Assembly (NCBI RefSeq): GCF_019443325.1
Contig: NZ_CP080383.1
Coordinates: 2,356,001-2,420,000 of the forward strand
Length of the DNA: 64,000 nucleotides
Direction: 5' to 3'
From: Cryobacterium sp. PAMC25264
Lineage (GTDB): Bacteria; Actinomycetota; Actinomycetes; Actinomycetales; Microbacteriaceae
In this document: positions 10,087-41,814 of the stretch, in pieces
Position numbering within the stretch: the first letter of the stretch is position 1
Layout of the letters: the number at the start of each line of letters is the position of its first letter
Notes under the pieces: generated by a model
What the model was told of the DNA's origin: nothing
Seen by the model: the letters and a program-made list of their open reading frames with translations, nothing else
Databases searched by the model: none
Position numbers and translations under genes: made by a program

Positions 10087-10161
10087 GATTATGAGGACAT
10101 AGTTCGGTTGGGAGGATACTTTTGGCCGCTTCCCTCCTCTTAACCGAACTATGTCCCCCTA
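10087..10161. repeat. Intergenic hairpin repeat, family 1 copy A
   Basis: GGACATAGTTCGGTT (10095-10109) pairs perfectly with AACCGAACTATGTCC (10142-10156), with an inner GAGGA/TCCTC pairing. It starts with GATTATGAGGAC and ends with TATGTCCCCCT. Four more copies are at 26176, 30549, 33571 and 41745. It sits between two convergent genes, so it may also terminate transcription. Confidence 0.75.
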
Positions 10162-10176
10162 ACGCTCTGACCCGGG

Positions 10177-12432
10177 TTACTCCTCGGCCACCGTGAACGC
10201 GGCCCCGAGCAAGACGCCGTCGCGGGACGACGGGCCGACCAGGAGGGTGAACTCCCCCGGTTCCACCACACGGTTGCCCGCTGCATCCACGATGCTGCAG
10301 TCGGCCACGGGCAGGTCGAGTCGCACCCGCACGCTCTCCCCCGGCGCCACCGACACCTGGCGGTAGGCCTTGAGCTCCTTGTCGGTCCAACTCACCGACG
10401 TCACGACATCCCGCACGTAGACCTGCACGGTCTCCAGCACCGGGCGGGTGCCGGTGTTCTGCACCGTCACGTGCGCCACGATCGTGTCGGCCGTGGTCAG
10501 CGACGTGTGCTCGAGCTCCAGGTCGGCGTACTGCACCGTGCTGTAGCTGCGGCCCTCGCCGAAGGCCCAGGCGGGCGACTGGGTGAGGTCGGCGTAACGG
10601 TCGCCGTGCTGGCCGCGCAGCTGGTTGTAATAGGTGGGCTGCTGGCCCACGTGGCGGGCGAACGAGAGGGGCAGCCGGCCGGAGGGCTCGACAGCGCCCA
10701 CGAGGATCTCGGCGAGCGCGCGGCCGCCCTGCATACCCGGGTTCGCCGTCCACAGCACGGCGGCGGCGTGCTGAACGGATGCCGGCAGCACCAGTGGCTT
10801 GGAGGCCAGCAGCACCACCACGACGGGTGTCCCCGTGGCGATCAGGGCGTCGAGCAGGGCGATCTGCCCGCCGATGAGCTCGAGTGTGGCCGTGGAGCGG
10901 CCCTCGCCGACGAGTTCGATCCGGTCGCCGACCACGGCCACCACGACATCCGCGTCTCGGGCCGCGGCCACGCCCTCGTCGATCAGCGCCTGGTCGGGCT
11001 CGCACGGCACCACATGCGGCGGGAGGGGCTGCCCGTCGGGGAAGGTGCCCCCGGCCGCCTCGAGGGTGAGGATGTCGGCGCCGCGCGCGTGGGTGACCGT
11101 GAAGGTGTCGGGGGCGATCCCACGGATGCCGTCGAGCACCGTGGTGATCATCTCGCGGGGCTGCCCGTCGAGCCAACCCACCTGGCCGGAGCCGCCGGCC
11201 CAGTCGCCCAGTTGGGTCTGGGCGTCGTCGGCCAGCGGCCCCACCACGGCGATCCGGGTGCGGGTGGCCGCAGACAGCGGCAGCAGCCCGTCGTTCTCGA
11301 GCAGCACGATCGAGCGGCGGGCCATCTCGAGGTTCAGCTCGGCGTGCTCGGCGGTGCCCACGACGCCGGTCAGGTCGGCCTGGGGCCCGCGCGGGTTCTC
11401 GAACAGGCCGAGCTCGAACTTGAGGGTGAGGATGCGGCTCACGGCGGCGTCGAAGGCATCCGCCGCCAGAAGCCCCTGTTCAACGGCGGCTTGGGCGCCC
11501 TCGTAGAACTTGGGGGTGGTCATGATCATGTCGTTGCCGGCCCGCACGGCCGCGGCCGCCGCGTGGGTGTAATCGGGCTGCACCTTCTGTTCCCACACCA
11601 TGCGGCCCACGTTGTCCCAGTCCGTGATGAGGGTGCCGGTGTAACCCCACTCGCCGCGCAGCACCTCACTGAGTAGCCAGTCGTTCACGGTGATGGGAAC
11701 GCCGTCCATGCTCTGGTAGCCGAGCATGAACGAGCGGCAGCCCTCCTTGGCCACCCGTTCGAACGGCGGCAGGAACCAGGAGCGCAGCTTGCGACGGGAG
11801 ATGTCGGCTTCGGTGGCGTCACGGCCGCCCTGCGTCTCGGAGTAGCCGGCGAAGTGCTTGGCGGTGGCGAGAATGGCCGTGGGGTCGGCCAGGCCGTCGC
11901 CCTGGTAGCCGCGCACCATGGCCGAGGCGAGTTCGCCGATGAGGAACGGGTCTTCGCCGAAGGTCTCGTTCACCCGGCCCCAGCGCAGGTCGCGGGCGAT
12001 GCAGAGCACGGGTGAGAAGGTCCAGTGGATCCCGGTGGCCGCCACCTCGACGGCGGTAGCGCGGGCGACCCGCTCCACCAGGGCGGTATCCCAGGACGCG
12101 GCCATGCCGAGCTGGGTCGGGTAGATGGTCGCGCCCTCGTGGAATGAGTGACCGTGGATGGCGTCTTCGGCGATGAGCAGCGGAATGCGCCAGCGGGTCT
12201 GGGCGGTGAGGTCGTTCGCACGCCGGATCAGTTCGGGTGAGGTGTGCAAAACCGAGCCGGCGTGCTTCTGCAGCACGTGGTCGTCGAGCTCTTCCCGGGC
12301 GTCGAGCTGCAGCATCTGCCCGATCTTCTCCTCGAGGGACAGCCTGCCGAGCAGGTCGGCGACTCGCTCGGGAACCGGGCGGGACGCATCCTGGTAGGGC
12401 AGGGTGTCGGTGAGTGTCGGGGAAATCGTCAT
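10177..12432 (-). CDS. GH3 beta-glucosidase
   Basis: 751 aa, no signal peptide, so cytoplasmic. The (beta/alpha)8 domain has LSLEEKIGQMLQLD, AEDAIHGHSF, RDLRWGRVNETFGEDPFL, KHFAGYSETQGGRD and TDWDNVG; the Asp in TDW (near residue 270) is the expected nucleophile, with T in place of the more common S. The alpha/beta sandwich follows (ARRSIVLLENDGLLPL, VVAVVGD, EGRSTATLELIGGQ), then a fibronectin-III-like domain (VTVQNTGTRPVLETVQVYV). It would hydrolyse imported beta-glucosides or xylo-oligosaccharides. It is the last gene of the importer operon, overlapping the DppC-like gene by 4 bp, which links it to the imported sugar. Confidence 0.93.
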   Translation of the reverse strand: MTISPTLTDTLPYQDASRPVPERVADLLGRLSLEEKIGQMLQLDAREELDDHVLQKHAGSVLHTSPELIRRANDLTAQTRWRIPLLIAEDAIHGHSFHEGATIYPTQLGMAASWDTALVERVARATAVEVAATGIHWTFSPVLCIARDLRWGRVNETFGEDPFLIGELASAMVRGYQGDGLADPTAILATAKHFAGYSETQGGRDATEADISRRKLRSWFLPPFERVAKEGCRSFMLGYQSMDGVPITVNDWLLSEVLRGEWGYTGTLITDWDNVGRMVWEQKVQPDYTHAAAAAVRAGNDMIMTTPKFYEGAQAAVEQGLLAADAFDAAVSRILTLKFELGLFENPRGPQADLTGVVGTAEHAELNLEMARRSIVLLENDGLLPLSAATRTRIAVVGPLADDAQTQLGDWAGGSGQVGWLDGQPREMITTVLDGIRGIAPDTFTVTHARGADILTLEAAGGTFPDGQPLPPHVVPCEPDQALIDEGVAAARDADVVVAVVGDRIELVGEGRSTATLELIGGQIALLDALIATGTPVVVVLLASKPLVLPASVQHAAAVLWTANPGMQGGRALAEILVGAVEPSGRLPLSFARHVGQQPTYYNQLRGQHGDRYADLTQSPAWAFGEGRSYSTVQYADLELEHTSLTTADTIVAHVTVQNTGTRPVLETVQVYVRDVVTSVSWTDKELKAYRQVSVAPGESVRVRLDLPVADCSIVDAAGNRVVEPGEFTLLVGPSSRDGVLLGAAFTVAEE

Positions 12433-13493: not shown

Positions 13494-13494
13494 C

Positions 13495-16120: not shown

Positions 16121-16154
16121 GGGGGTCGTCGCTTTCGTGAAGGTCGGCGATTCA

Positions 16155-25143: not shown

Positions 25144-25146
25144 GCC

Positions 25147-26118: not shown

Positions 26119-26175
26119 GCGCATCCGCATCGGGTGCGTGCGCGGCGCCCCGGGCGTCGCCCACAAAACGTTTCC

Positions 26176-26242
26176 GAGGAAAAAGTGAGTTTAGAAGGAC
26201 CCTGCGCGCGATTTCGTCCTCTTAAACTCACTTTGTCCTCCT
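26176..26242. repeat. Intergenic hairpin repeat, family 1 copy B
   Basis: AAAGTGAGTTTA (26182-26193) pairs with TAAACTCACTTT (26223-26234), and the inner AGGAC/GTCCT (26196-26200, 26216-26220) closes the loop. The left and right halves align in length with the other copies, although the paired arm sequence differs from copy A. Located between two genes transcribed rightward. Confidence 0.75.
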
Positions 26243-26338
26243 CAACGTGTGCTCGACGAACTTGAGCGGCGCGGCGAGCGCATCCGCTGACCGGGCGTTA
26301 CGCTCAGACGAAGCCGATTGTCGGCGATCAGCGCACAC

Positions 26339-27511: not shown

Positions 27512-27581
27512 TCCCCACGCCGGTGAGTGGCCTGGTGCTCCTAGTGCACGCGGCCCGGAAGACGGCGTTCGACGGGGATCG

Positions 27582-29458: not shown

Positions 29459-29462
29459 GGTC

Positions 29463-30407
29463 TCAGCGTATCGACAGCGTCGCGAGGAAGTCCGTGGTGT
29501 CGCGGGCGATCTCGGGCGAGAGGGTGTGGTGGAGGTAGTGGTCGCCGGTGAGAGGGATCACCTGGCCGGTGTCGACGCTCGCGGCCTGCTTGTCGTGCAG
29601 GGCCACCCAACCGTCCACATCGGTGTCGTTGGAGCGCACGAAGAGCAGCACCGGGAGGTCGGCGGGGAAGGTCTGCCCGCTGACCACGGCGAAGTTGGCG
29701 GGGGTGTTGTCCATCTCGTTCACGAGTGTCGGGGCCGCCGAATTCTTGCTGCTGAGCAGCTTCATCTGCGCGATGGTCTGCTCGTCGTAGGGCAGACCCA
29801 GGTAGGGGTCGGGCGCCAGGGAGGTGAGGGCCCGGGTGATGCCCAGGGTGCTCAGCGTCGAGATCAGGCCGGCCGGAATCGGCTCGCCGGCGCCGGGCTG
29901 GTCGGGCACGCTGCTGTCGATGCCGACGAACGCGACGAGTTCGTCCGCGTAGGCGGCGCTGTAGGTGAGGGCGTAGATGCCGGCGATGGAGTGACCCATC
30001 AGCACGTACCGGTCTACGTCGAGGTACTGCAGCGCCTCGTGCACCTCCCGGGTGATGTTCGCGGCGGTGCGCGGGGTGTCGGTTTGGTCGCTGAGACCGG
30101 TGCCGAACGGCTCGACCGCCACCACCCGGTAGGTGTCGTCGAGTTCGTCGATCAGGGGCTGGAAGTCGAGTCCGGGAGCGGCGGTGCCGAGTCCGGGCAG
30201 CAGCACGACGGTCTGGTCGCCGTCGCCGCTCTGCACCACGTTCATCTCTTTGCCGTCGACGGGAACCCGCTGCCCGTAGTCGGTGATCGCGGAGGCTTCG
30301 GAGGCAGTGGCGACGGCGTTGACCACGGCGGTCGTGGCCACGAGCAGCACCGGAATCGCCACGAGCACGCCGAGGGTAGTGAGCGCGATGCGCAGGGGTT
30401 TCTTCAT
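29463..30407 (-). CDS. Membrane-anchored alpha/beta hydrolase
   Basis: 314 aa when started at ATG 30407 (MKKPLRIALTTLGVLVA); an upstream in-frame start would add a Pro-rich run without signal features. One N-terminal hydrophobic helix anchors it. The alpha/beta hydrolase fold shows VVLLPGLGTAAPG, nucleophile elbow MGHSIAGIYALTYS, and the C-terminal DHYLHH with the likely catalytic His. It lies 4 bp upstream of the histidine kinase gene in the same operon, so it may generate or respond to the signal of this two-component system, or be its target under shared control. Substrate unknown. Confidence 0.82.
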   Translation of the reverse strand: MKKPLRIALTTLGVLVAIPVLLVATTAVVNAVATASEASAITDYGQRVPVDGKEMNVVQSGDGDQTVVLLPGLGTAAPGLDFQPLIDELDDTYRVVAVEPFGTGLSDQTDTPRTAANITREVHEALQYLDVDRYVLMGHSIAGIYALTYSAAYADELVAFVGIDSSVPDQPGAGEPIPAGLISTLSTLGITRALTSLAPDPYLGLPYDEQTIAQMKLLSSKNSAAPTLVNEMDNTPANFAVVSGQTFPADLPVLLFVRSNDTDVDGWVALHDKQAASVDTGQVIPLTGDHYLHHTLSPEIARDTTDFLATLSIR

Positions 30408-30512
30408 GGGGACTCGTCTCGGTTGGCCGGGCGGCGGGGATCGCTGCGGCGGTGTGAGACCAGCCAATCAATCCCGGGTGGCGCCCGGAAGTGCCTGGGT
30501 GTCATCGCTGGC

Positions 30513-30528
30513 CGTGACAGGTGTCACG
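30513..30528. promoter_or_regulatory. Candidate operator palindrome
   Basis: CGTGACAGGTGTCACG is a perfect 7-2-7 inverted repeat about 105 bp upstream of the hydrolase-kinase-regulator operon and 285 bp upstream of the haloperoxidase gene. It could bind the LuxR-type regulator or another dimeric factor. Confidence 0.45.
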
Positions 30529-30548
30529 GTTGGGTGCGCCTGTCTCGT

Positions 30549-30616
30549 GGGAAAAAGTGAGATGAGAAGGACGGAATCCGGGATTCGGTCCTATTTTGCG
30601 AACTATCTCCCGATAA
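30549..30616. repeat. Intergenic hairpin repeat, family 1 copy E
   Basis: Left arm GGGAAAAAGTGAG resembles copy B; the right arm GCGAACTATCTCCC resembles copy A, so the outer arms do not pair. The inner stem AGGAC...GAATCC/GGATTC...GTCCT is strong. Confidence 0.65.
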
Positions 30617-30813
30617 ACGTGCGTCACAGGGCAGCTTTCCCGGATGTTGCCCGTCGCGTCGGCATCCATTCACACTCAGGGGGTGTGGAAGCAGCGGACT
30701 CCCACGTACGGTGGTTTCACCCGACCCGTGGAGCCACGCGGGCCAGCAGTTCACCGCCTCAGCAACGTTCATCTGACCGATACCGCACGTACTGCCTAAG
30801 GAGAACACGAACA

Positions 30814-31635
30814 ATGCCTTACTTCACCACCTCAGACGGAACCGAGATCTACTACACCGAACAGGGCACCGGCCAGCCCGTGCTGCTCAGCCACGGCTGG
30901 CCGCTGTCGTCGGACGCCTGGCAGGTCGAGCTCAAGCTGCTGGCGGATGCCGGCTACCGCGCCATCGCGCACGACCGCCGCGGCCACGGGCGCTCGTCGA
31001 AGACCTACACGGGCAATGACATGGACACCTACGCCAAGGACCTTGCCGAGCTGGTCGAGTCGCTCGACCTCACCAACCTCGTGGTCGTCGGCCACTCCAC
31101 CGGCGGCGGCGAGGTGGTGCGCTACGCCGCCCAGCACGGCAAGGGACGGGTGGCCAAGGTCATCACAGCCGGGGCCGTTCCGCCGCTGATGGTGAAGACC
31201 GACAGCAACCCAGAGGGCACTCCGATCGAGGCGTTCGACGGCATCCGTGCCGGGGTGCTCAAGGACCGCTCGCAGTTCTACCAGGACCTCAGCGAGGCGT
31301 TCTTCGGCGCCAACCGGGACGGGTCGAATGTGTCGCAAGGCGCGAAGGATGACTTCTGGCGCCAGGGGATGCTGGTGAACCTCGCCGCGGCGTTTGACTG
31401 CGTGAAGGCGTTCTCGGAGACCGACTTCACCGAGGACCTCAAGGCGCTGGATGTGCCGATCTTCATCGCGCACGGCGACGACGACCAGATCGTGCCGATC
31501 GCCGCGGCCGCGCTGAAGTCGGCTGAGCTGGTGAAGCACGGCACCCTGAAGATCTACGGGGGCGCCCCGCACGGTGTGTACGGCGACTACCAGGACGAGT
31601 TCGACGAGGACATGCTGGCGTTCATCGCGGAGTAG
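30814..31635 (+). CDS. Non-heme haloperoxidase-like alpha/beta hydrolase
   Basis: 273 aa from ATG 30814, preceded by AAGGAG. It matches the cofactor-free chloroperoxidase/arylesterase family almost throughout: HGWPLSSDAW (oxyanion hole), RAIAHDRRGHGRS, nucleophile GHSTGGGEVVRYAAQHG (Ser near residue 96), VVAVP-type acid region HGDDDQIVP, and the catalytic His in YGGAPHGV. Members hydrolyse esters and, with acetate and peroxide, halogenate; the natural substrate is usually unknown. It stands alone, facing the hydrolase-kinase operon across a long intergenic region. Confidence 0.92.
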   Translation: MPYFTTSDGTEIYYTEQGTGQPVLLSHGWPLSSDAWQVELKLLADAGYRAIAHDRRGHGRSSKTYTGNDMDTYAKDLAELVESLDLTNLVVVGHSTGGGEVVRYAAQHGKGRVAKVITAGAVPPLMVKTDSNPEGTPIEAFDGIRAGVLKDRSQFYQDLSEAFFGANRDGSNVSQGAKDDFWRQGMLVNLAAAFDCVKAFSETDFTEDLKALDVPIFIAHGDDDQIVPIAAAALKSAELVKHGTLKIYGGAPHGVYGDYQDEFDEDMLAFIAE

Positions 31636-31760
31636 GCGTTCGGCCGGCTCGCCCCGTCGACCGAGACCGCTGGTCGAGCCTGTCGACACCCGGCGAGGCA
31701 GCCGCGTCCGCAGGTCGGCTCACGAGGTCTCCTAAGGAAGTGCGCTTCCGCCGACCACCC

Positions 31761-31830
31761 GGGCGCGAAGCGCCCCCACAGCTCGACAAGCTCGACCGAC
31801 TAGGGGCTGGCTCGACCGGCTAGGGGCTGG
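31761..31830. repeat. Short repeats between haloperoxidase and HAD genes
   Basis: GGGCGC-GAA-GCGCCC (31761-31775) is a perfect hairpin. Next to it are two tandem 20-bp copies of CTCGACCGRCTAGGGGCTGG (31791-31810, 31811-31830). Words such as CTCGACAAGCTCGACC recur in other gaps (37860, 46980-47180). Possible terminator region for the two convergent genes. Confidence 0.5.
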
Positions 31831-31856
31831 CCCGGCCGCCGAGGCACGGAGCCGGG

Positions 31857-32519
31857 TTAGGCGCTCAGGCCCAGCTCCTCGAGGCGGTCGAGGATCTCGT
31901 CGGTGCCTCCGAAGACACTCCAGGCACCCGCGTCGGTGAGCAGATCACCGGCGATCCCGCCGGACAGCACTCCGAGCGAGCGCACCCGGGCGCGAGCCGC
32001 GGCCTCGATATCCCAGACCGAGTCGCCGATGAACAGTGCCTCGGCGGGCTCGACGCCAGCTCGCTCGAGGGCCAGCTTGACGATGTCGGGGTCGGGCTTG
32101 GCCACAGCCACGTCATCGGAGTTGGTGGTCGCGTGGATGGCCTCATCGGAATCGAGCAGATCGAGCAGGATGTTCAGCTCCTCCTCGGGCGCCGAGGCGG
32201 CGAGCACCACGATGACACCCCGCTTGGCCAGGGCCGACAGCAGCTCTCGTGCCTGCGGGAAGACGCGCAACCGGGGCGCGAGTTCCTGGTAATTCGCGGC
32301 GTGCAACTCCTTCGCCCGGCTCACCCAGTCGTCCGGCCGCTCCCCCACCAGCGACGACAGCAGTTGGCCGGCATCCTGGCCGATCGACCGGTGGATGCGC
32401 CACGCCTCGACGTCGGTGTCGAGCGTCTGGAAGGCGCGCTGCCAGGCATCGATGTGCAGGTAATTGGAGTCGACCAGGGTGCCGTCGATGTCGAAGAGCA
32501 CTGCCTTCGCCGGGCTCAT
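31857..32519 (-). CDS. HAD-family phosphatase/hydrolase
   Basis: 220 aa. The four HAD motifs are clear: I, FDIDGTLVDSN (nucleophile Asp10 and Asp12 region); II, VVLAASAP; III, AVAKPDPDIV with the Lys; IV, LFIGDSVWDIEAA. The cap is the helical type I of beta-phosphoglucomutase/phosphoglycolate phosphatase-like enzymes (NYLHIDAWQRAF). Substrate unknown. It overlaps the F420-type oxidoreductase upstream by 4 bp and so is co-translated with it. Confidence 0.9.
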   Translation of the reverse strand: MSPAKAVLFDIDGTLVDSNYLHIDAWQRAFQTLDTDVEAWRIHRSIGQDAGQLLSSLVGERPDDWVSRAKELHAANYQELAPRLRVFPQARELLSALAKRGVIVVLAASAPEEELNILLDLLDSDEAIHATTNSDDVAVAKPDPDIVKLALERAGVEPAEALFIGDSVWDIEAAARARVRSLGVLSGGIAGDLLTDAGAWSVFGGTDEILDRLEELGLSA

Positions 32520-33481
32520 CGGGCACCGCCGTCGAGCAGCCGGGGCCGCAGCTCCTGCTCGAAGAAGTCGAAGAAGCCGTCTTGGTCGGGGCCGGCGTTC
32601 ATGAGGGCGATGTGGTCGAAGCCGGCATCCGTGAACTGGCCGATCACCTCGAGGTGCCGCTCCACGTCCGGGCCGCAGGCGAACTGCTCACGTATGTCGT
32701 TCTCACGCACCGTGGCGGCTGCGGCCTCGAAGTTCACCGGGTTCGGCAGCTCGCTCATCACCTTCCAACCGCCCAGCGCCCACGAGTTGGTGGCGTGCGC
32801 GGCTTTCACAGCGGCGTCTTCGGTGGGCGCCCAGGCCAGCGGAGCCTCGGCGAAGAGCGGACCGGTGCCGCCGGCATCGCGGTAGCCGGTGACCAGGTCG
32901 GCCTTGGGCTCGGTGGCGAAGAGCCCGTCGCCGTGCTCGGCGGCGAGCGCCACGGACTTCGGGCCGCTGACCGCCACGGCCATGGTGGGCAGCACGTCAG
33001 GCAGGTCGAAGATGCGGGCGTCCTCGAGCTTGAGGTAGCGACCGTCGTAGTTCTGATAGCCGCCCTGCCAGAGCAGACGGATGATGTCCAGCGCTTCGTT
33101 GAAGGTGGCATGCCTCTCGTGGATGCCGGGGAAGCCGCGGCCCACGATGTGCTCGTTCAGGCGCTCGCCCGAGCCGACGCCGAGGGTGAAACGGCCGTCG
33201 GAGAGCAGCGCGAGAGTGGCCGCGGCCTGCGCGATGATCGCCGGGTGGTAGCGCACGCTGGGGCAGGTGACCCCGGTGGCGAGCTCCAGGGTGGTGGTCT
33301 TCGCGGCGATGGCGCTGAGCACGTTCCAGACGAAGGGCGAGTGGCCCTGGGCCTCGACCCAGGGGTGGAAGTGGTCGCTCATCTCCACAAAATCAAAGCC
33401 GGCCTGCTCGGCGCGTACGGCTTGGCGCACGAGTTCTTGGGGTCCGAATGCCTCGGCGATCAGCTTGTATCCGATTTTCAT
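32516..33481 (-). CDS. LLM-class F420-dependent oxidoreductase
   Basis: 321 aa. It belongs to the luciferase-like monooxygenase fold and to the branch related to F420-dependent glucose-6-phosphate dehydrogenase: MKIGYKLIAEAFGPQELVRQAVRAEQAGFDFVEMSDHFHPW, GVTCPSVRYHPAIIAQAAATLALLSDGRFTLGVGSGERLNEH, and VAVSGPKSVALAAEHGDGL. These contain the SDHFHPW and GSGE motifs that line the deazaflavin site. It reduces or oxidises an unknown substrate with coenzyme F420, a cofactor of many actinobacteria. The HAD gene follows with a 4-bp overlap. Confidence 0.88.
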   Translation of the reverse strand: MKIGYKLIAEAFGPQELVRQAVRAEQAGFDFVEMSDHFHPWVEAQGHSPFVWNVLSAIAAKTTTLELATGVTCPSVRYHPAIIAQAAATLALLSDGRFTLGVGSGERLNEHIVGRGFPGIHERHATFNEALDIIRLLWQGGYQNYDGRYLKLEDARIFDLPDVLPTMAVAVSGPKSVALAAEHGDGLFATEPKADLVTGYRDAGGTGPLFAEAPLAWAPTEDAAVKAAHATNSWALGGWKVMSELPNPVNFEAAAATVRENDIREQFACGPDVERHLEVIGQFTDAGFDHIALMNAGPDQDGFFDFFEQELRPRLLDGGAR

Positions 33482-33570
33482 CCTTAAACGCTACGCAGCC
33501 GCACCGACAGGGGCAACCCCGTTGCGCAGAGCGCGGCGGGTGGGGTACGCGCAGCGGGTGCGCGTCGAAC

Positions 33571-33643
33571 GATTATCAGGACAACGGTCGTTCTCTAGGA
33601 CCAGATGTGCGATCCCGTCCCAGCAAACGCACTATTTCCCCCC
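33571..33643. repeat. Intergenic hairpin repeat, family 1 copy C
   Basis: Starts GATTATCAGGACAACGGTCG and ends GCACTATTTCCCCCC. The inner GGAC/GTCC can pair; the outer arms do not. It aligns base for base in length with copies A, D and E. Confidence 0.65.
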
Positions 33644-33709
33644 ACAGTGGCGCTCAGTCACCCCGCTCTGCCGTGCCCGCGGACTTGCGCGCGGACAACA
33701 ACCCACTGG

Positions 33710-33728
33710 TAAGGTTAGGCAACCCTTA
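33710..33728. promoter_or_regulatory. DtxR/IdeR iron box
   Basis: TAAGGTTAGGCAACCCTTA agrees at 17 of 19 positions with the IdeR/DtxR consensus TWAGGTTAGSCTAACCTWA, counting W positions. It is 102 bp before the start of an iron-siderophore binding protein. With Fe(II) the regulator would bind here and shut the transporter off. Confidence 0.85.
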
Positions 33729-33830
33729 CGGATGCGCCGGGCTGGACCCCTGCGCGCGGCGGAGGGGCGCGGCATCACAGCGCCGTCGGTCCACTCCCTG
33801 ACCCCCTGCACCACGATCACGAGGAAAACC

Positions 33831-34859
33831 ATGCCCCGCGCATCCGCATTTCTAGCCCTCACGGCCGCCGCCGTTCTCACCCTGGGACTCGCCGCCTGCT
33901 CGTCCCCTGCGGCCGACACCGACTCCGCCGCCGCATCCGGCGATTTCACCCCGATCACCATCGAGCACGCCTTCGGCGAGACCGTGATCGAGACCAAGCC
34001 CGAGCGCGTGGCCACCGTCAACTGGGCCAACCAAGAGGTGCCGCTGGCGCTCGGCGTCGTGCCCGTGGGCATGGCCGCCGCCACCTGGGGCGACGATGAC
34101 GACGACGGAATGCTGCCCTGGGTGAAGGCCAAGCTCGACGAGCTCGACGCCGAGACCCCCGTGCTGTTCGACGAGACCGACGGCATCGACTTCGAAGCCG
34201 TGGCCGACACCAACCCCGACGTGATCCTCGCCGCCTACTCCGGCCTCACCCAGGAGGACTACGACACCCTCAGCGCCATCGCGCCGGTCGTGGCCTACCC
34301 GGAGAACGCCTGGGGCACCTCCTGGCGTGACATGATCTCGCAGAACGCCGCCGGCCTGGGCATGGTCGCCGAGGGCGACGACCTCATCGCCGAACTCGAG
34401 ACCGAGATCGCCGACACCGCCGCGAAGTACCCGTCGCTCGAGGGCAAGACCGTCATGTTCCTCACCCACGTCGACGAGGCCGACCTCAGCGAGGTCAGCT
34501 TCTACACAACGCACGACACCCGCACGATGTTCTTCGACGACCTCGGCATGGTTAGCGCGCCGAGCATCGTCAAGGCCTCCGCCACCACCGACCTGTATTC
34601 GCTCACGCAGAGCGCCGAGCAGGCGGATGCGTTCAACGACGTCGACGTGATCGTCACCTACGGCGGCGCCGACCTGGTTGCCACCCTCGAGGGTGACCCG
34701 CTGCTCTCGCAGATCCCCGCGGTGGCCAACAAGTCCATCGTCAACCTCTCCGGCGACGGCCCCATGGGCACCGCCGCGAACCCCACCCCGCTGTCGATCT
34801 CGTACATCCTCGACGACTACGCGGCGCTGCTCGCCGCTGCGGCCGACAACGCGAAGTGA
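33831..34859 (+). CDS. Iron-siderophore ABC transporter binding lipoprotein
   Basis: 342 aa from ATG 33831 with GAGGA upstream. Lipoprotein signal with lipobox LAAC at Cys22. The body is the FecB/FhuD-type bilobed fold: TIEHAFGETVIETKPERVATVNWANQEVPLALGVVPVG, FEAVADTNPDVILAAYSGLTQEDYDTLSAIAPVV and the second-lobe strands. It captures a ferric siderophore outside the cell and hands it to the two permeases that follow (4-bp overlap). Controlled by the iron box just upstream. Confidence 0.93.
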   Translation: MPRASAFLALTAAAVLTLGLAACSSPAADTDSAAASGDFTPITIEHAFGETVIETKPERVATVNWANQEVPLALGVVPVGMAAATWGDDDDDGMLPWVKAKLDELDAETPVLFDETDGIDFEAVADTNPDVILAAYSGLTQEDYDTLSAIAPVVAYPENAWGTSWRDMISQNAAGLGMVAEGDDLIAELETEIADTAAKYPSLEGKTVMFLTHVDEADLSEVSFYTTHDTRTMFFDDLGMVSAPSIVKASATTDLYSLTQSAEQADAFNDVDVIVTYGGADLVATLEGDPLLSQIPAVANKSIVNLSGDGPMGTAANPTPLSISYILDDYAALLAAAADNAK

Positions 34860-35905
34860 CCCTTCTCTCCCCTGTTTCATCAGCCGCTTCGAGCGTCGCC
34901 CGTGTGCGACGCCCGAAGCGGCTGCGGTCGTTGTGGCTGCTCGCCGCGCTCGGCGTGCTCACCCTGCTGATGCTGGCATCGGTCACCATCGGCTCCCGCG
35001 AGGTCGGCTGGGGCGACATCTGGGCGGCACTCGGCGGGGCCAGGGATAGCTTCGACCGCGCCGCCGTCGCCACCCGCATCCCCCGCACCCTGCTGGCCGT
35101 CGTCGCCGGGGCCGCCCTGGGCATGTCGGGCGCGGTGATGCAGGGGGTGACCCGCAACCCGCTGGCTGACCCGGGCATCCTGGGCGTCAACGTGGGCGCG
35201 GCCCTCGCCGTCGTGAGCGGCATGGCTTATTTCGGGCTCAGCAGCGCCACCTCGATGATCTGGGTGGCCATCGTGGGCGCCGGCGCCACCGCCCTGTTCG
35301 TTTATACGATCGGCTCGCTCGGCCGCGGCGGCTCCACCCCGCTCAAGCTCGCGCTGGCCGGGGCGGCCACCTCCGCGGCGCTGGCCTCGTTCGTCACCGC
35401 CGTGGTGCTGCCCCGCAATGACATCGCCGGCAGCGTGCGCTCCTGGCAGATCGGCGGAGTCGGCGGGGCGACGATGGAGAACATCCGGGTCGTGGCGCCG
35501 TTCCTGATCGTGGGTTTCGTGCTCAGTTTCCTCTCCGCCCGGGCGCTCAACGCGCTGGCGCTCGGCGACGACCTCGCTGCCGGCCTGGGCGAACGGGTAG
35601 CCGTGGCGCGCGGCGCCGCGGCGATCGGCGCCGTCGTACTCTGTGGCGCGGTCACGGCCGTTGCCGGGCCGATCGGCTTCGTCGGGCTCGTCGTTCCGCA
35701 CGCCTGCCGGCTGCTCGTGGGCGTCGACCACCGCTGGCTGCTGCCCTTCTCCGCCGTGCTCGGCGCGGCCCTGCTCACCGGCGCCGACGTGATCGGCCGC
35801 GTCATCGCCCGACCCGCGGAGATCGACGTGGGCATCCTCACCGCCCTCATCGGAGCCCCCGTGTTCATCTACATCGTGCGCCGCCGCAAGGTGCGTGAAC
35901 TGTGA
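34856..35905 (+). CDS. FecCD-type siderophore permease 1
   Basis: 349 aa with about ten hydrophobic segments. It has FecCD signatures: RIPRTLLAVVAGAALGMSGAVMQGVTRNPLADPGILGVNVGAALAVV, GSVRSWQIGGV, LALGDDLAAGLGERVAVARG, and GPIGFVGLVVPHACRLLVGVDHRWLLPFSAVLGAALL. The start overlaps the binding-protein stop by 4 bp. It pairs with the second permease as a heterodimer in the membrane. Confidence 0.94.
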   Translation: MTLLSPVSSAASSVARVRRPKRLRSLWLLAALGVLTLLMLASVTIGSREVGWGDIWAALGGARDSFDRAAVATRIPRTLLAVVAGAALGMSGAVMQGVTRNPLADPGILGVNVGAALAVVSGMAYFGLSSATSMIWVAIVGAGATALFVYTIGSLGRGGSTPLKLALAGAATSAALASFVTAVVLPRNDIAGSVRSWQIGGVGGATMENIRVVAPFLIVGFVLSFLSARALNALALGDDLAAGLGERVAVARGAAAIGAVVLCGAVTAVAGPIGFVGLVVPHACRLLVGVDHRWLLPFSAVLGAALLTGADVIGRVIARPAEIDVGILTALIGAPVFIYIVRRRKVREL

Positions 35906-35981
35906 TCACCTCGCACGGTCGACTGCCCGGTTCTGCAGCGGATGCCCGTTCCCTCGATCGACCGCGTCAGGCGGGTGCGTC

Positions 35982-37043
35982 GTGAGTACCGTCCTGTCCT
36001 CGGCCGGGCTGCCCGGGTCGACGGCGGAGGCCGTGGCCGAGAGCCGCGCGCGCCGCCGCATCCGTCGCCGCAGCGTGATCACCGTGCTCGCGCTGCTCAT
36101 CGTGGCCGGCTACCTGGTGAGCCTCATGGTGGGGCAGACCAACTACTCCCCCGCCGATGTGCTCGGCGTGGTCTTCGGCCAGGACGTGCCCGGCGCGAGT
36201 TTCACCGTGGGCCGGCTGCGGCTGCCCCGCGCGACGCTGGCCGTACTCGCGGGGCTGTGCTTCGGTCTGGGTGGCGTGACCTTCCAGACGATGCTGCGCA
36301 ACCCCCTGGCCAGCCCCGACATCATCGGCATCAGCTCCGGCGCCAGTGCCGCCGCCGCGTTCGCGATCATCGTGCTGGGCTACGGGTCCACCGCGGTCTC
36401 GATCATCGCCATCGTCTCGGGCCTCGTCGTGGCGCTGGCCATCTACGCGCTGGCGTACAAGGGCGGAGTGGCCGGCACCCGGCTCATCCTGATCGGCATC
36501 GGTGTGGCCGCGATGCTCGACAGCATGACCGCGTACGTGCTCTCCCAGGCCGCCGAGTGGGACCTGCAGGTGGCCATGCGCTGGCTCACCGGCAGCCTGA
36601 ACGGCAGCACCTGGACCCAGACCCTGCCCGTGCTTGTGGCCCTGCTGGTGCTCACGCCGGTGCTGCTCGGGCAGTCCCGCAACCTGTCGATGAGCCAGCT
36701 CGGCGACGACACCGCATCCGCCCTCGGGGTTCGCGTGGAACGCTCCCGGATGATCATGATCATCGCCGCCGTGGGGCTCATCGCGTTCGCCACCGCCGCG
36801 GCCGGGCCGATCGCGTTCGTCGCGTTCCTGGCCGGGCCCATCGCATCCCGCATCGTGGGCCCCGGCGTCTCGCTGCTTGTGCCGGCGGCGCTCGTGGGTG
36901 CGATGCTCGTGCTGGTGGGCGACTTCGCCGGCCAGTACGCGTTCGGCACCCGGTTCCCGGTGGGCGTCGTCACCGGCGTGCTCGGGGCGCCGTACCTGCT
37001 TTACCTCATCATCCGCACCAACCGCGCCGGAGGCTCCCTGTGA
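35982..37043 (+). CDS. FecCD-type siderophore permease 2
   Basis: 353 aa if started at GTG 35982 (MSTVLSSAG); a GTG at 35895, overlapping the previous gene by 11 bp, would add a Cys/Pro-rich stretch unlike the family. About ten membrane segments, with RLRLPRATLAVLAGLCFGLGGVTFQTMLRNPLASPDIIGISSGAS, RWLTGSLNGSTW, LSMSQLGDDTASALGVRVERSR and AGPIAFVAFLAGPIASRIVG. Partner of permease 1. Its stop overlaps the ATPase start (GTGA). Confidence 0.92.
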   Translation: MSTVLSSAGLPGSTAEAVAESRARRRIRRRSVITVLALLIVAGYLVSLMVGQTNYSPADVLGVVFGQDVPGASFTVGRLRLPRATLAVLAGLCFGLGGVTFQTMLRNPLASPDIIGISSGASAAAAFAIIVLGYGSTAVSIIAIVSGLVVALAIYALAYKGGVAGTRLILIGIGVAAMLDSMTAYVLSQAAEWDLQVAMRWLTGSLNGSTWTQTLPVLVALLVLTPVLLGQSRNLSMSQLGDDTASALGVRVERSRMIMIIAAVGLIAFATAAAGPIAFVAFLAGPIASRIVGPGVSLLVPAALVGAMLVLVGDFAGQYAFGTRFPVGVVTGVLGAPYLLYLIIRTNRAGGSL

Positions 37044-37849
37044 CACTCACTCATACCCTTGTGGTGGAGAACCTCACCCTCGGCTACGGCGACCGTACCG
37101 TCATCGACGGCCTCGACCTCGTCGTGCCGGCCGGGCGCATCACCGCGATCGTGGGCGCCAACGCCTGCGGCAAGTCCACGCTGCTGCGCTCGATGTCGCG
37201 GCTGCTGCCACCCCGGGCCGGGCAGGTGCTGCTCGACGGCAAGCAGGTGCACCGGATGCCCGCCAAGGAGCTGGCCCGCACGCTGGGGTTGCTGCCGCAA
37301 TCGCCGATCGCGCCCGAGGGCATCACGGTGGCCGACCTGGTGGGCCGTGGACGCAACCCGCACCAGCGGATGTTCTCCCGTTGGAGCGCTGCGGACGACG
37401 AGGCCGTGGCGGCGGCACTCGACGCCACCTCCACCGCGGCGCTGGCGGACCGGGCCGTGGACGAGCTCTCCGGCGGGCAACGCCAGCGGGTGTGGATCGC
37501 GATGGCGCTGGCCCAGCAGACCGACCTGCTGCTGCTCGACGAACCCACCACGTTCCTCGACGTGAGCCACCAGATCGAGGTGCTCGACCTGCTCACCGAC
37601 CTCAACCGGGCCCGCGGCACCACCATCGTGATGGTGTTGCACGACCTCAACCTCGCCGCCCGGTACGCCGACCACTTGATCGCCCTGGCGGATGGCCGCG
37701 TGCACGCGGTCGGCACCCCGCACGAGGTTCTCACGGAGGAGACCGTGCAGGCGGTGTTCGGTCTCTCGAGCAAGGTGCTCGAGGACCCTACCTCCGGCCG
37801 CCCGATGATGCTGCCCATCGGCCGCCACAACGTGGTCACGCCGGTCTAG
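37040..37849 (+). CDS. Iron-siderophore ABC ATPase (FecE-like)
   Basis: 269 aa from GTG 37040. Walker A GANACGKSTLL with Ala-Cys before GKS (usually GPNGSGKS/GANACGKS in the FecE branch), Q-loop LGLLPQSPIAPEGITVADLVGRGRNPHQ, signature [18 protein letters not shown], Walker B LLLLDEPTTFLD, switch VLHDLNLAARYADHL. The motif PHQ and the VWIAMALAQ run are typical of siderophore ATPases. Last gene of the iron-regulated operon. Confidence 0.95.
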   Translation: MTLTHTLVVENLTLGYGDRTVIDGLDLVVPAGRITAIVGANACGKSTLLRSMSRLLPPRAGQVLLDGKQVHRMPAKELARTLGLLPQSPIAPEGITVADLVGRGRNPHQRMFSRWSAADDEAVAAALDATSTAALADRAVDELSGGQRQRVWIAMALAQQTDLLLLDEPTTFLDVSHQIEVLDLLTDLNRARGTTIVMVLHDLNLAARYADHLIALADGRVHAVGTPHEVLTEETVQAVFGLSSKVLEDPTSGRPMMLPIGRHNVVTPV

Positions 37850-37931
37850 CGGCGCGCGGGGTCTCGACAGGCTCGACCAACGTGTTGGTGGCGTTGCCCA
37901 GACTGGCTCGCGGCGGTGCTGGGCTGGCCGG

Positions 37932-37990
37932 TGCACCCCCTGTGGCTGAATGCGCCAGCTATAGGTGGCGCATCCAGCCATACGAGGTGC
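37932..37990. repeat. Palindromic repeat family 2, intact copy
   Basis: GGCTGAATGCGCCAGCTATA pairs with its inverse GGTGGCGCATCCAGCC around the central CTATAG (core 37944-37979), and outer TGCACC/GGTGCA extends the stem. The same element is split by the IS at 20711-22268. Confidence 0.75.
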
Positions 37991-38033
37991 AGCGAAGCGC
38001 GGCGGATGCTCACCGCGCCACCTCTCGGCAATA

Positions 38034-38080
38034 GCGCCCGCTATAGGGGGCGCATCCAGCCACACGAGGTGCAGCGACGC
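38034..38080. repeat. Palindromic repeat family 2, partial copy
   Basis: GCGCCC-GCTATAGG-GGGCGC (38034-38053) followed by ATCCAGCCACACGAGGTGCA. The left outer arm is missing; 55 bp from the intact copy. Confidence 0.7.
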
Positions 38081-38370
38081 ATCCGTCGTTTTCGGGTGGT
38101 ACGGTGTTCGAGGCCCAGGCAGGGCCACGACACACTTCGATCGAAGGCGGGTGAGCGGCCATGGCTGGTGATAGTCCGCGCTCCATCTCCCCTGCGGGTG
38201 TCGTCTTCGTCCTGTCTCTCTGACTTCGTCGGGAGCGGCCCGCGCTGAGATGGTGCGCCTCCTGAACCTCCCTGTGTGGGGTGGCCTCCCGTCTGTCGTC
38301 GAGTCCTGACGCGCGGTTCCTCCCCCGGCTTGCTTGCGCGCTCTCGTCGACCGACCGACGGAGTACGACC

Positions 38371-39429
38371 ATGGCACTCATCGACAACGGCATCTATGTG
38401 ACCGGGCGACGCACCGCGAGCCCGCACAGCCTCGACGAGACCTACGCGCAGTTACACGCGCATGCCGGCATGGCGTGGATCGGCCTGTACCGACCCGATG
38501 CGAGCGAGATCCGCAGCGTTGCCGACGAGTTTTCCCTGCATCCGCTGGCCGTGGAGGATGCGCTCAAGGGCCACCAGCGGGCCAAGCTCGAGCGCTTCGG
38601 TGAGACGTTGTTCGTGGTGTTGCGTCCGGCCTGGTATCTCGACGCGGAGGAGACCGTGGAGTTCGGCGAGGTGCACGTGTTCATCGGGCCGGGCTTCGTG
38701 GTGACCGTGCGGCACGCCGAGAACCCCGACCTGGCGAATGTGCGCCGGCGGATGGAGTCGAACCCGGCGCTGCTGGCCCGTGGACCCGAAGCCGTGCTGC
38801 ACGCCGTGCTCGACGAGGTGGTGGATGGCTACGGGCCGGTGATCGCGGGCCTGGAGAACGACATCGACGAGATCGAGGATCAGCTCTTCGGCGGCGAACC
38901 GAACGTGTCGCGGCGCATCTACCAGCTGCTCAGCGAGGTGATCGCGTTCCAGCGGGCCACGGGGCCGCTTCGCGGCATGCTCGAGGGCCTGCTGCGCGGC
39001 TCGGACAAATACCGGGTGGACGAGGAACTGCAGCGGTCGTTCCGCGACGTGCTCGACCACGTGCTGCGTGTGGGTGAGCGGGCGGACTCGTTCCGGGTAC
39101 TGCTGGAGAACGCGCTGACCGTGCACTCCACCCTGGTGACCCAGCAGCAGAACGACGAGATGCGCCGGCTCTCGGAGGCGAGCCTGGCCCAGAACGAGGA
39201 GACCCGGAGGCTCTCCGAGGTGGGTCTGGAGCAGAACGAGGAGGTGAAGAAGATCTCCGCGTGGGCGGCGATCCTGTTCGCTCCCACCCTGGTGGGCACG
39301 ATCTACGGGATGAACTTCGACACCATGCCCGAGTTGCACTGGCAGTTCGGCTACCCGCTGGCCGTCGCCGCGATGGTGCTGATGGGGTTCGGGCTCTGGG
39401 GCATCTTCAAGCAGCGCCGCTGGCTTTAA
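38371..39429 (+). CDS. corA: CorA-type magnesium/cobalt channel
   Basis: 352 aa from ATG 38371. Long N-terminal cytoplasmic domain (MAWIGLYRPDASEIRSVADEFSLHPLAVEDALKGHQRAKLERF), stalk helix, and two membrane segments at the C-terminus with the selectivity motif GMN (IYGMNFDTMPEL). Just before the first membrane segment a 14-residue heptad unit is repeated: QNDEMRRLSEASLA, QNEETRRLSEVGLE, QNEEVKKISAWAA; usual CorA proteins have only the last, so the stalk is about four heptads longer. The upstream leader of more than 250 bases may carry regulation. Function as a divalent cation channel is well supported. Confidence 0.92.
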   Translation: MALIDNGIYVTGRRTASPHSLDETYAQLHAHAGMAWIGLYRPDASEIRSVADEFSLHPLAVEDALKGHQRAKLERFGETLFVVLRPAWYLDAEETVEFGEVHVFIGPGFVVTVRHAENPDLANVRRRMESNPALLARGPEAVLHAVLDEVVDGYGPVIAGLENDIDEIEDQLFGGEPNVSRRIYQLLSEVIAFQRATGPLRGMLEGLLRGSDKYRVDEELQRSFRDVLDHVLRVGERADSFRVLLENALTVHSTLVTQQQNDEMRRLSEASLAQNEETRRLSEVGLEQNEEVKKISAWAAILFAPTLVGTIYGMNFDTMPELHWQFGYPLAVAAMVLMGFGLWGIFKQRRWL

Positions 39430-39499
39430 CCCTCCAGGCATCGCTGACCGGGCGGCCGCTGACGGATGCGCGCGCGATGGAGTCCGCCCCGGTTCGGCC

Positions 39500-39886
39500 T
39501 CAGACCGGGCTGACCAGCTGGATCAGGTTGCCGCAGGTGTCGTCGAACACCGCGGTGGTCACCGGGCCCATCTCCGTCGGCGGCTGGGTGAAGCGCACTC
39601 CGAGCGCCAGCATCCGTTCGTATTCGGCGGCGACGTCATCGACGGTGAACTGGGTGAACGGGATGCCGTCGGCCACCAGCGCTTCGGTGAACGGCTTCAC
39701 GGCGGGGTGGCCGTTGGGTTCGAGCAGCAGCTCGGTGCCGTCGGGGTTCTCCGGCGACACCACCGTGAGCCAGCGGTCAGCCCCCAGGGGGATGTCGTGC
39801 TTCGTGGTGAATCCGAGCACCTCGGTGTAGAACTGTTGCGCCTTCGCCTGATCGTCGACGAACACGCTGGCCATCTGAATCCTCAT
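39500..39886 (-). CDS. VOC/glyoxalase-family protein
   Basis: 128 aa. One vicinal-oxygen-chelate module pair: MASVFVDDQAKAQQFYTEVLGF at the start, ELLLEPNGHPAV in the middle, MGPVTTAVFDDTCGNLIQLV at the end with the D-x-x-GN-x-I motif. Members are metal-dependent lyases, dioxygenases or resistance proteins; the metal residues cannot be fixed here and the family is too broad for a specific call. It converges on corA with 70 bp between. Confidence 0.82.
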   Translation of the reverse strand: MRIQMASVFVDDQAKAQQFYTEVLGFTTKHDIPLGADRWLTVVSPENPDGTELLLEPNGHPAVKPFTEALVADGIPFTQFTVDDVAAEYERMLALGVRFTQPPTEMGPVTTAVFDDTCGNLIQLVSPV

Positions 39887-40045
39887 GTCGTTCCCTCTTC
39901 CTGTTCAGGCCTCACTGGGGCTAAGTGGTGCACTGGTGCACGCGCGGTTCCACTCTGACGGATGCCGGTCCGACTCGGCAAGGCCGCTCGACCCGGCGCT
40001 CGGGGCCTGAGCCAGCCGCACGGCCCGCACAGTAGCCTGGGCACC

Positions 40046-40348
40046 ATGACCGTTGAGAACAGCGCACCGGAGGCGACCTCCGCGCCCCGCTACTCCGGCA
40101 AGGCGGTCCTCGCGTTTCCGGTCGGACTGGTCGCGGTGTTCCTGCCGGCGCCGTTCAATATGCTCCTCGGCGGTATCGCGGTGCTCATCGCCGGGGCCGC
40201 ACGGCGGGAGCTGCGGCAAGACGAGACCCTGCGCGGCACGGCGTTCTCGCTGCTGGGCGTGCTGCTCGGCGCGGGCGTGCTTCTCGTGCAGGTCGCCCCT
40301 CTGGTGTTGGCGTACGGGATTCTCGCGCTGAGCAACCTGGTTCCCTGA
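40046..40348 (+). CDS. Small membrane protein, DUF4190-like
   Basis: 100 aa from ATG 40046. Two or three hydrophobic segments (residues 20-50 and 65-98): VLAFPVGLVAVFLPAPFNMLLGGIAVLIAGAARRELRQDETLRGTAFSLLGVLLG. The pattern of two membrane segments with a short basic loop (RRELRQ) fits DUF4190-type proteins, which are common in actinobacteria and have no known role. It is 82 bp before the second paralogue of the 26339 gene, in the same direction. Confidence 0.65.
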   Translation: MTVENSAPEATSAPRYSGKAVLAFPVGLVAVFLPAPFNMLLGGIAVLIAGAARRELRQDETLRGTAFSLLGVLLGAGVLLVQVAPLVLAYGILALSNLVP

Positions 40349-40430
40349 GCCGGCACCCGCCGCTTCAGCCCGACCGCTACCCTCGAGAGGGGGTCGGGTG
40401 TCGGTGCCCGAGCACACGGGGGTGGGACGG

Positions 40431-41714
40431 ATGCCGGTGACCGAGCACAGCACAACGACGTTCCGCACCCGGGCGCTCACGGAGCGGGTCACCCGCCGCG
40501 CCGTGCGCCGGTGGTACCGTCCGTTCGCCGAGCAGCATCCCTCGGTGCGGAGCCCGCTCACTCCGGCCCGCCGGGTGGCCGCCTTCGTCGGTGGTGGCGC
40601 CGCGGTCATCGGCCTGCTCGCCCTGGGCACGGGCGTGGCGCAAGAGGTCGACGCGGGCAGGCCGGACATGGTCGGGCAGCTGCTGGGCATCTCGGTCATC
40701 GGCGGCCTGCTGCTGATCGCGGGCATCGTGCTGGCCTGGTTCTACGTCCGCACGACCGCCCGCCGGGGCACCCCGACGAGGCACTATCGGCTGGCTCGGT
40801 TCGCGGCCCAGAACGTCCTGACCTATCGGCCCGGACCGGTCTCCGGTGCACACATCACCCCGTGGGCCGACCGCGGGTCCCTCTCGCTCACCCGCGTGAT
40901 GCGCACGGCGTCACGGCGCCCGCTCGAGTTCGCGAATTACGAGCTGCGCACCAGCCCGGCCGGCAGCCGGAACACGCAGTTCGGTGGTTTCTGCGCTGTG
41001 CGACTGAGCACATCCCTGCCGCACATCATTCTGCAGGCGCGGGGTGGCGCCCTATTCTCAGCGGCGACACTGCCCGCCAGTAGCCAGCGCCTCTCGCTGG
41101 AGGGCAACTTCGACGACTACTTCACGCTGTACTGCCCCACCGAGTACGAGCGGGATGCGCTGTACCTCTTCACCCCCGACGTGATGGCCCGCCTCATCGA
41201 CCGGGTGCGTGGCTTCGACGTGGAGATCATCGACGACTGGCTGTTCTTCGTCACCAGCCGCGACGTGGTCACCCTCAATCCGGCGACCTGGCAGGGGTTG
41301 GCGGACGCGACATCCGCGCTCAGCGACAAGATCGGCCGGTGGGAGCGTTGGCGGGACGACCGACTGCCGGAGGTTGCGCCCGACTCGACCGTGGGCGCGG
41401 ATGCCGGCGCACAAGCTGGCGCGGTGGGCGCGGATGCGGGCGCACAGGCTGGCGCGGTGGGCGCGGATGCCGGCGCGCAGGCTGGCGCGGTGGGCGCGAG
41501 CTCGACCGTGGGCGCGACTACCGAGGCGCCGATTGGTATCGCTGGCACGGGCTTGGCCGTGGGCGCTGGGGCGCCCGCTGGTGTGACTGCCGCGACGGCC
41601 ACGGTCGCCAAGCCCGGTCGTCGTTTGCGGATGTCCCTGGGCGCGCGGGCACTGATCTGGGCGGTGCCCGTTGTGGTGCTGCTGGTTCTCGTTGTGCTGG
41701 CCAATCTGCTCTAG
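40431..41714 (+). CDS. Membrane protein of unknown function (DUF3137-like), paralogue 2
   Basis: 427 aa from ATG 40431, the point where similarity to paralogue 1 begins; a GTG at 40398 is also open. Two membrane segments (around 45-75 and 85-105) and one at the C-terminus. The soluble part has RLSLEGNFDDYFTLYCPTEYERDALYLFTPDVMARLIDRVRGFDVEIIDDWLFFV, nearly the same as at 26339. Between this domain and the last membrane segment lies an 11-residue repeat (GADAGAQAGAV) in three copies encoded by a 33-bp tandem repeat (41391-41489). Function unknown; the repeat looks like a flexible linker that grew recently. Confidence 0.75.
   Translation: MPVTEHSTTTFRTRALTERVTRRAVRRWYRPFAEQHPSVRSPLTPARRVAAFVGGGAAVIGLLALGTGVAQEVDAGRPDMVGQLLGISVIGGLLLIAGIVLAWFYVRTTARRGTPTRHYRLARFAAQNVLTYRPGPVSGAHITPWADRGSLSLTRVMRTASRRPLEFANYELRTSPAGSRNTQFGGFCAVRLSTSLPHIILQARGGALFSAATLPASSQRLSLEGNFDDYFTLYCPTEYERDALYLFTPDVMARLIDRVRGFDVEIIDDWLFFVTSRDVVTLNPATWQGLADATSALSDKIGRWERWRDDRLPEVAPDSTVGADAGAQAGAVGADAGAQAGAVGADAGAQAGAVGASSTVGATTEAPIGIAGTGLAVGAGAPAGVTAATATVAKPGRRLRMSLGARALIWAVPVVVLLVLVVLANLL
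41391..41489 (+). repeat. 33-bp tandem repeat inside a gene
   Basis: Three copies starting at 41391, 41424 and 41457, beginning GTGGGCGCGGATGC, with a partial fourth at 41490. In frame with the paralogue 2 gene, encoding an Ala/Gly-rich linker. Confidence 0.9.
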
Positions 41715-41744
41715 GCACCGCCTAGCTCAGGCGCCGGACCGCCG

Positions 41745-41814
41745 GATTATCAGGACTTCGGTCGAAAAATAGGACGCAATTCGCGAGTGCGTCCCATTAA
41801 TCTCACTTTCTCCC
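41745..41814. repeat. Intergenic hairpin repeat, family 1 copy D
   Basis: GATTATCAGGACTTCGGTCG at the left, CACTTTCTCCC at the right; the inner stem GGACGCA/TGCGTCC (41772-41778, 41788-41794) is perfect. Outer arms do not pair. Between two genes transcribed rightward. Confidence 0.7.

Follow-up and report, generated by a model that had tools for sequence, protein, structure and literature searches.

The 64,000-nucleotide stretch of the Cryobacterium sp. PAMC25264 chromosome analysed here (the window; G000:C1:2356001-2420000 of a 4.06-Mb, single-contig genome) carries, in five gaps between genes, copies of a palindromic DNA element of about 91 bp. Copy A (10078..10171) lies 3′ of a GH3 gene between convergent neighbours, copies B (26167..26252) and E (41737..41825) lie between tandem neighbours, and copies C (30536..30627) and D (33562..33652) between divergent ones; none was assigned a strand. 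Direct reading confirmed the places given by the original prediction, which had been made from the sequence of this stretch, and showed that the five copies can be aligned in one register. We consider it probable that these copies are solo members of a family that, together with a nuclease gene lying elsewhere in the genome, makes up a two-part system arranged like the REPtrons of other bacteria, with an enzyme unrelated to theirs.

A covariance model built from the five copies was searched against the whole genome and returned 65 rows, corresponding to 34 places. One of them, at 2916463, was a 49-nt match with E=4.6 that a refitted model missed, and it was dropped. Thirty of the remaining 33 places scored E≤0.01 with the first model, and the other three 0.024, 0.076 and 1.1. 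The sequence-only model refitted on the 33 copies returned 66 rows, one per strand for each of these places, every place scoring E≤2e-10 on its better strand; these are the sequences on which the model was trained. The search thus raised the family from five copies to 33, a lower bound because the scans of this genome scored 150 of 189 candidates with the first model, 150 of 387 with the refitted model and 150 of 197 with the half-element model described below.

Conservation of the alignment columns over the 33 copies showed that the element is longer than the ~70 nt first proposed. The conserved span begins about 7 bp ahead of an 80-nt core and ends about 4 bp past it, with little conservation beyond. 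Its layout is AGGA-15-AGGA, a centre of 15-16 bases and then the mirror image; the centre has 15 bases in 30 copies and one base more in three. The consensus half reads roughly CGACGnMCGWTTATnAGGAnAWMGKnMGnWWAAnAGGACGnAAT, mirrored around base 40, and the outer ends carry a loose GACG/CGTC. The four AGGA/TCCT boxes of an element are spaced 19, 21 and 19 bp apart and, because each spacing is close to two helical turns, they probably lie roughly on one face of the helix. AT content peaked at a period of 10.1 bp, a signal that stayed under the 95% level of mirror-preserving shuffles. When the genome was searched with a half-element model, 63 half-sites were obtained at E≤0.1; read by eye, all of them lay inside the 33 elements, and solitary half-sites outside these were not found in this genome at that threshold. 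The four-box, mirror-symmetric pattern fits a DNA site that would be read by a protein. In two relatives, an extra 19-bp unit was seen by eye at one end of the element (L068-type copies and L140), which suggests that this unit may be a binding module.

Some features of the elements in relatives are recorded here in their own right. In G023, 19-bp-extended elements lie upstream of similar multi-copy genes (L068, L074, L081, L088 and L095), one of which (L068:1958-3085) was scanned and encodes a DUF222 domain. G197 carries five elements in a row over ~640 bp (L163:1598-2234; G197:C1, ~645.9-646.5 kb), and three of the five have a different inner word, AAGCGCC/TAGCGCC. An apparent shortage of elements with two CGG-type halves (p=0.05) was set aside, as the search pattern favours one CACT half.

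The five copies had been described as hairpins with partly exchanged arms, possibly a structured RNA or a terminator. Copies A and B are indeed near-perfect palindromes, A with one additional central base, and their arms pair as described, both folding far below shuffled sequences (z=-5.1 each). Copies C, D and E, described as having non-pairing outer arms, fold no better than shuffles (z=-1.0, +0.2 and +0.2). The inner GGAC/GTCC, said to be kept in every copy, holds apart from copy A, where the exact words are lost (GGAT and CTCC, with the additional central base). The exchange of arms had been assigned to the wrong copy: it is C that joins a B-like left half (AAAGTGAG) to an A-like right half, and E combines a left half of a third type (CGGTCG), also present in D, with a B-like right half. 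The mixed arms that had suggested recombination are half-site types that vary inside a conserved frame.

Over the 33 copies, the two halves of one copy matched each other no better than halves taken from different copies (22.15/43 within and 21.89/43 between copies, p=0.30; 21.71 and 21.74 without A and B). Because there was no excess of within-copy pairing, the conserved feature is the frame of DNA sequence. A structured RNA or a bidirectional terminator at gene 3′ ends would agree with the location of the elements behind stop codons and with the strong hairpins of a minority of copies, such as A and B. It would also agree with a pairing total slightly over chance in 69 copies from 7 genomes (1637 vs 1578, p=0.0014; 100 copies gathered, 81 once near-duplicates were removed), an excess that was weak and strongest at the base adjoining each AGGA box. 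However, no mirror pair was found among the 32 strongest column dependencies, the strongest being mostly between neighbouring columns. Fold scores of z<-2 were obtained for 14 of the 33 copies on the + strand and 17 on the - strand. No conserved T-run was seen: just 15 copies had, on one strand or the other, 5 or more T among the 8 nt that follow GTCC. Rfam gave no match in the window, and no terminator was called at copies B-E in the stretch scanned (26000-42000, copy A lying outside it). The family is not a conserved hairpin, and we regard the RNA or terminator explanation as very improbable. Template switching at quasi-palindromes is one way in which the near-perfect minority could have arisen. 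The family illustrates how misleading the strong hairpins of individual copies can be where it is a DNA site that is conserved.

The position of the elements was analysed with genes called by a simple codon-score caller and not taken from annotation. None of 100 copies (33 from this genome and 67 from relatives, orthologs included) lay inside a called gene. Among the 93 copies with both flanks called, 56 had tandem, 26 convergent and 11 divergent neighbours, and in 47 of the 56 tandem contexts the distance to the upstream stop was shorter than that to the following start (medians of 24.5 and 94 nt, p=2.6e-7); most copies lie just behind a stop codon. The comparison with REP (repetitive extragenic palindromic) or MITE (miniature inverted-repeat transposable element) sequences made in the original prediction was therefore right in kind, since the family is dispersed, intergenic, palindromic, near gene 3′ ends and, in the scans made, restricted to one bacterial family. 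In this genome 27 of the 33 elements are on one chromosome arm (p=0.0003, with the terminus taken as opposite dnaA); by our own count, the partial element lists of G004, G007 and G024 lean to the same arm and that of G023 does not. Two other repeats were noticed near elements or their sites: 133-bp direct repeats at G000 L054:10593-10853, and a different dispersed repeat (GGTCTCGACAAGCTCGACC), several copies of which occupy the place of element D in G004 (L149:390-700).

Many copies at orthologous places appear as a conserved island within indel-rich intergenic DNA. In 22 ortholog pairs, 115 of 760 cells differed in the high-information columns and 190 of 462 in the low-information columns, and in the four pairs located by their flanks the values were 31/139 and 41/84 (p=6e-5); only copies that the model can recognise enter this comparison, including the four flank-located pairs, and the pairs are not independent. 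The motif of the element is constrained.

A strict pattern, which matches 21 of the 33 own copies, was searched in 84,980 species and found in 40 stretches, all from Microbacteriaceae by name; the hosts were several Cryobacterium, 'Leifsonia sp. Root4', Mycetocola manganoxydans and an Okibacterium. The same pattern occurred in no stretch of the viral contigs. With the refitted model, and 107 candidates scored per genome, elements were detected in 7 of 25 genomes of the genus and in none of the other 18; nor did the model find any in 15 genomes that belong to the same order but to other families. A scan of the family with strict filters and 10 candidates per genome gave matches at E≤0.001 in at least 28 of 398 genomes and at least 11 of 85 genera.

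This distribution bears on whether the elements could be sites for a protein that is universal among hosts, gyrase or a nucleoid protein for instance, in the way that BIME-2 (a bacterial interspersed mosaic element) serves gyrase in E. coli. Mirror symmetry, the ~10-bp periodicity of AT content and the location at gene 3′ ends would all suit such a site, and the E. coli gyrase motif, as described in the text of PMC6379681 available to us, spans 130 bp and is likewise symmetric and periodic (10.75 bp). The gyrase motif is degenerate, whereas the four GGA/TCC boxes are nearly invariant; 18 of the 25 genomes of this genus lack the elements; the periodicity is not significant once mirror symmetry is kept; and a universal host protein would leave the associated nuclease gene unexplained. 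We therefore give this explanation hardly any weight.

Clustering of the genes that flank elements revealed a 282-aa protein encoded beside elements in 7 loci. In the own genome its gene is at ~G000:C1:2,760,595-2,761,443 (L045:3096-3944, - strand), about 340 kb away from the window; one element lies ~106 bp ahead of the start codon and another overlaps the stop. Element pairs spaced ~1 kb were followed first and additional listed elements of other genomes afterwards, which placed the gene, or a homolog of it (identities down to 40%), next to elements in 17 genomes from five GTDB genus groups (g1, g18, g79, g22 and g100). Elements were present on both sides in 14 of these 17 units (in RYN_54 the upstream one is half an element) and on one side in three. 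The distance from the upstream element, present in 16 units, to the start was 89-121 bp in 14 of them and 160 and 186 bp in the others. Downstream elements lay between -22 and +23 bp from the stop in 13 of 15 units, and at 52 bp (with an assumed gene end) and 77 bp in the other two. In Microterricola gilva the gene end was set at 2500, the listed frame (P0063, 349 aa) overrunning the downstream element.

The family protein, of ~280 aa, joins an AbiEi-like N-terminus to a DUF559 domain of the Vsr nuclease type. Residues 9-105 resemble AbiEi (PADLOC, 7.6e-7; AbiEi_4 at 8e-5 in L159, under the Pfam cut-off). Residues ~185-270 match DUF559/MTES_1575, with Pfam DUF559 over and REase_MTES_1575 below the cut-off; in the available text of PMC3710099, MTES_1575 is a nuclease domain of the Vsr family. 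An alignment of 30 homologs, with identities to the first as low as 41%, shows five invariant residues (E180, D206, D218, H223 and D232), which may constitute the catalytic set. Profile searches of PDB matched 3hrl (3e-5) and, weakly, 3r3p (0.08), a 'Mobile intron protein' that we take to be I-Bth0305I; NCBIfam gave no match for the protein. From these domains, the gene product is a probable DNA-cutting protein.

The types of the elements are matched to the host groups of the genes. The two elements of one unit were alike at 39.75 of 48 positions, compared with 29.7 for elements of other genera, and none of 20000 permutations reached as high a value; this test used 8 of the 17 units, including one of the ten from Cryobacterium. 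Between their AGGA boxes, most Cryobacterium elements have an AGTGAG-like inner word, the g18 units TCGCACG and Root4 AAGCGCG. The g18 word also occurs in solo elements: two g18 genomes had it in 17 of their 30 half-sites, the others in none of 68. The repeat type thus co-varies with the enzyme, host group and enzyme lineage not being separated in these data.

The 17 units comprise ten on the Cryobacterium side, namely those of the own genome (L045), SO1 (G007, L070), G024 (L085), C. lactosi (L128), sp. 1639 (L161), C. adonitolivorans (L160), N22 (L129), C. zongtaii (L131), RYN_54 (L126) and C. arcticum (L207). In the Mycetocola group, g18, three genomes carry units (L159, L186 and L203); g79 is represented by Microterricola gilva (L184) and Leifsonia Root4 (L190), g22 by Diaminobutyricimonas (L177) and g100 by G154 (L172). 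In G154, two places scored E≤0.001 in the family scan, and one of them together with a third, weaker place flanks the gene. A second nuclease copy (P0030), 82% identical, was seen in Cryobacterium sp. 1639. The closest named homologs that could be placed were in genomes that bear elements (G007, G023, G044, G055, G112, G137, G230, G248, RYN_54 and C. lactosi), with 100% protein identity at four loci. Other homologs belong to LW097, W22_MBD10_FK3, Microterricola viridarii, Agromyces, Plantibacter and Microbacterium, and plasmid records gave no match to the protein at E≤1e-10. Two sites appear with and without the gene. At the acs site, three g18 genomes carry the whole unit and a Cryobacterium metagenome-assembled genome a solo element, with acs 81% identical and the other neighbour of the latter genome different. 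At the GH3 site, C. adonitolivorans and C. arcticum carry the gene and the own genome the solo element A; the orthology of this site is uncertain because the GH3 proteins are only 67-70% identical.

We propose that the AbiEi-like N-terminal domain would bind the four NAGGA boxes, as two mirrored pairs, in the form of an oligomer, that the DUF559/Vsr-type C-terminal domain would nick or cut at the element, and that repair copying would then place or restore elements elsewhere, where they would be tolerated best just behind stop codons. The element upstream of the gene may double as its operator. Binding of the protein to the elements is likely; cutting, spreading and autoregulation are inferred. 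Proteins of the AbiEi family bend DNA and bind to pairs of 23-bp inverted repeats situated ahead of their own genes (PMC7319586, in the text available), and an EDxHD homing enzyme with the Vsr fold dimerises on a ~60-bp target ('nearly 60 bp' in the accessible part of PMC3943268). Together, the repeat binding of the former and the dimerisation of the latter suggest that the protein may oligomerise on the element and then cut or nick it.

The main rival shares the binding step but sees the elements as regulatory or insulating. Binding by the AbiEi-like protein would serve solely for autoregulation and for a roadblock or insulator function behind genes, the nuclease would not spread elements, and copies would stem from ordinary duplication and persist through selection. 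In 14 of 16 units the upstream copy is indeed as far from the start as an operator would be, the lower rate of change in the motif columns over the 22 ortholog pairs (115/760 vs 190/462 cells) would be expected of such sites, and AbiEi-family proteins autoregulate through inverted repeats, as far as the available text of PMC7319586 describes. However, operators and insulators leave unexplained why the gene has a copy at its own stop codon, why the elements are patchy in the genus (7 of 25 genomes) and why the nuclease residues are conserved. This explanation appears unlikely to us, if by no means negligible.

Several observations weigh against a nuclease that seeds and maintains its elements. 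At the sites of copies B-E in relatives, counting the 15 with both flanks and leaving out those with one flank only, four had an intact element (copy B in G023, C in G024, D in G011 and E in G004), one had half of one (E in G024) and ten had other sequence in its place. G137 has an intact gene (P0057) away from the stretches around its 5 listed elements, and the only homolog in G023 (P0035), with an altered and shortened C-terminus, is away from that genome's 8 elements; the C-terminus of the Microterricola gilva copy is also altered. No gene was found beside the elements read in G004 (10), G363 (3), G247 (3) and M. manganoxydans (7, one region), or beside those of six genomes viewed once (G118, G293, G309, G411, G440 and Okibacterium). 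Genes without elements are under-counted, because the loci were chosen for holding elements. Finally, DUF559 proteins are numerous, one member having 1175 relatives at E≤1e-10.

Movement by another enzyme was also considered, the elements being either MITEs of an unseen transposon or classical REPs moved by a RAYT (REP-associated tyrosine transposase). Dispersed palindromes do bracket one gene here, as REPs bracket rayt genes (PMC2817692, in the part available). The REP transposase family PF01797 was, however, absent from all 28 genomes searched, with the control positive in 5 of 14 named genomes; no half-sites were found outside the 33 elements at E≤0.1 among the 150 of 197 candidates scored; and the elements exceed the 20-40 bp of REPs. 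We consider this explanation most improbable.

Returning to the proposal of a two-part system, we put forward more tentatively that it may represent a new class of repeat-enzyme partnership, in which a Vsr-type nuclease with an AbiEi domain reads a ~91-bp palindrome as an oligomer, brackets its own gene with it and both seeds and maintains the solo copies behind genes chromosome-wide. If so, an analogue of the REPtron would have arisen out of a nuclease with relatives among the enzymes of repair and homing, and the use of this arrangement by another, unrelated class of enzyme would mean that this lifestyle evolved more than once. It would also provide orphan repeats with a testable partner, suggest a role for one branch of the large DUF559 family and raise the possibility that other branches have cognate repeats of their own, as yet unseen. 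We found no published report of these elements or of a repeat-bracketed DUF559 gene, in a search mostly outside the subscription literature.

Among known systems, the operators of AbiEi antitoxins such as Rv2827c share with this family the AbiEi-like N-terminal domain and the long inverted repeats that precede the gene in pairs (PMC7319586, available text). They differ in that a nuclease domain here takes the place of the antitoxin C-terminal domain, and that the sites are found chromosome-wide. The EDxHD homing endonucleases (I-Bth0305I) resemble the nuclease through the weak profile match to 3r3p (E=0.08); unlike in their case, no intron or intein was seen, and the gene is flanked by two whole elements and does not interrupt one. 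The tagged REPs (GTAG or CGTC) are 20-40 bp long, and at ~91 bp, with loose outer GACG/CGTC, the element falls outside that range. The CGTC-tagged REPs are, as here, palindromes located behind genes without a RAYT; unlike here, they apparently lack a dedicated enzyme, the enzymes described with REPs being RAYTs (PMC3733652, as far as its available text goes, where no Actinobacteria are mentioned). The closest likeness in arrangement is to the REPtrons, in which dispersed intergenic palindromes also lie near gene 3′ ends and two copies bracket the gene (PMC2817692, in the part accessible), and in which the repeat type also follows the host group of the enzyme (PMC3733652, likewise in part). In REPtrons the enzyme is a Y1 HUH transposase and the repeats are 20-40-bp hairpins present in hundreds of copies, whereas here a DUF559/Vsr-type nuclease is accompanied by tens of copies of a ~91-bp element with four boxes.

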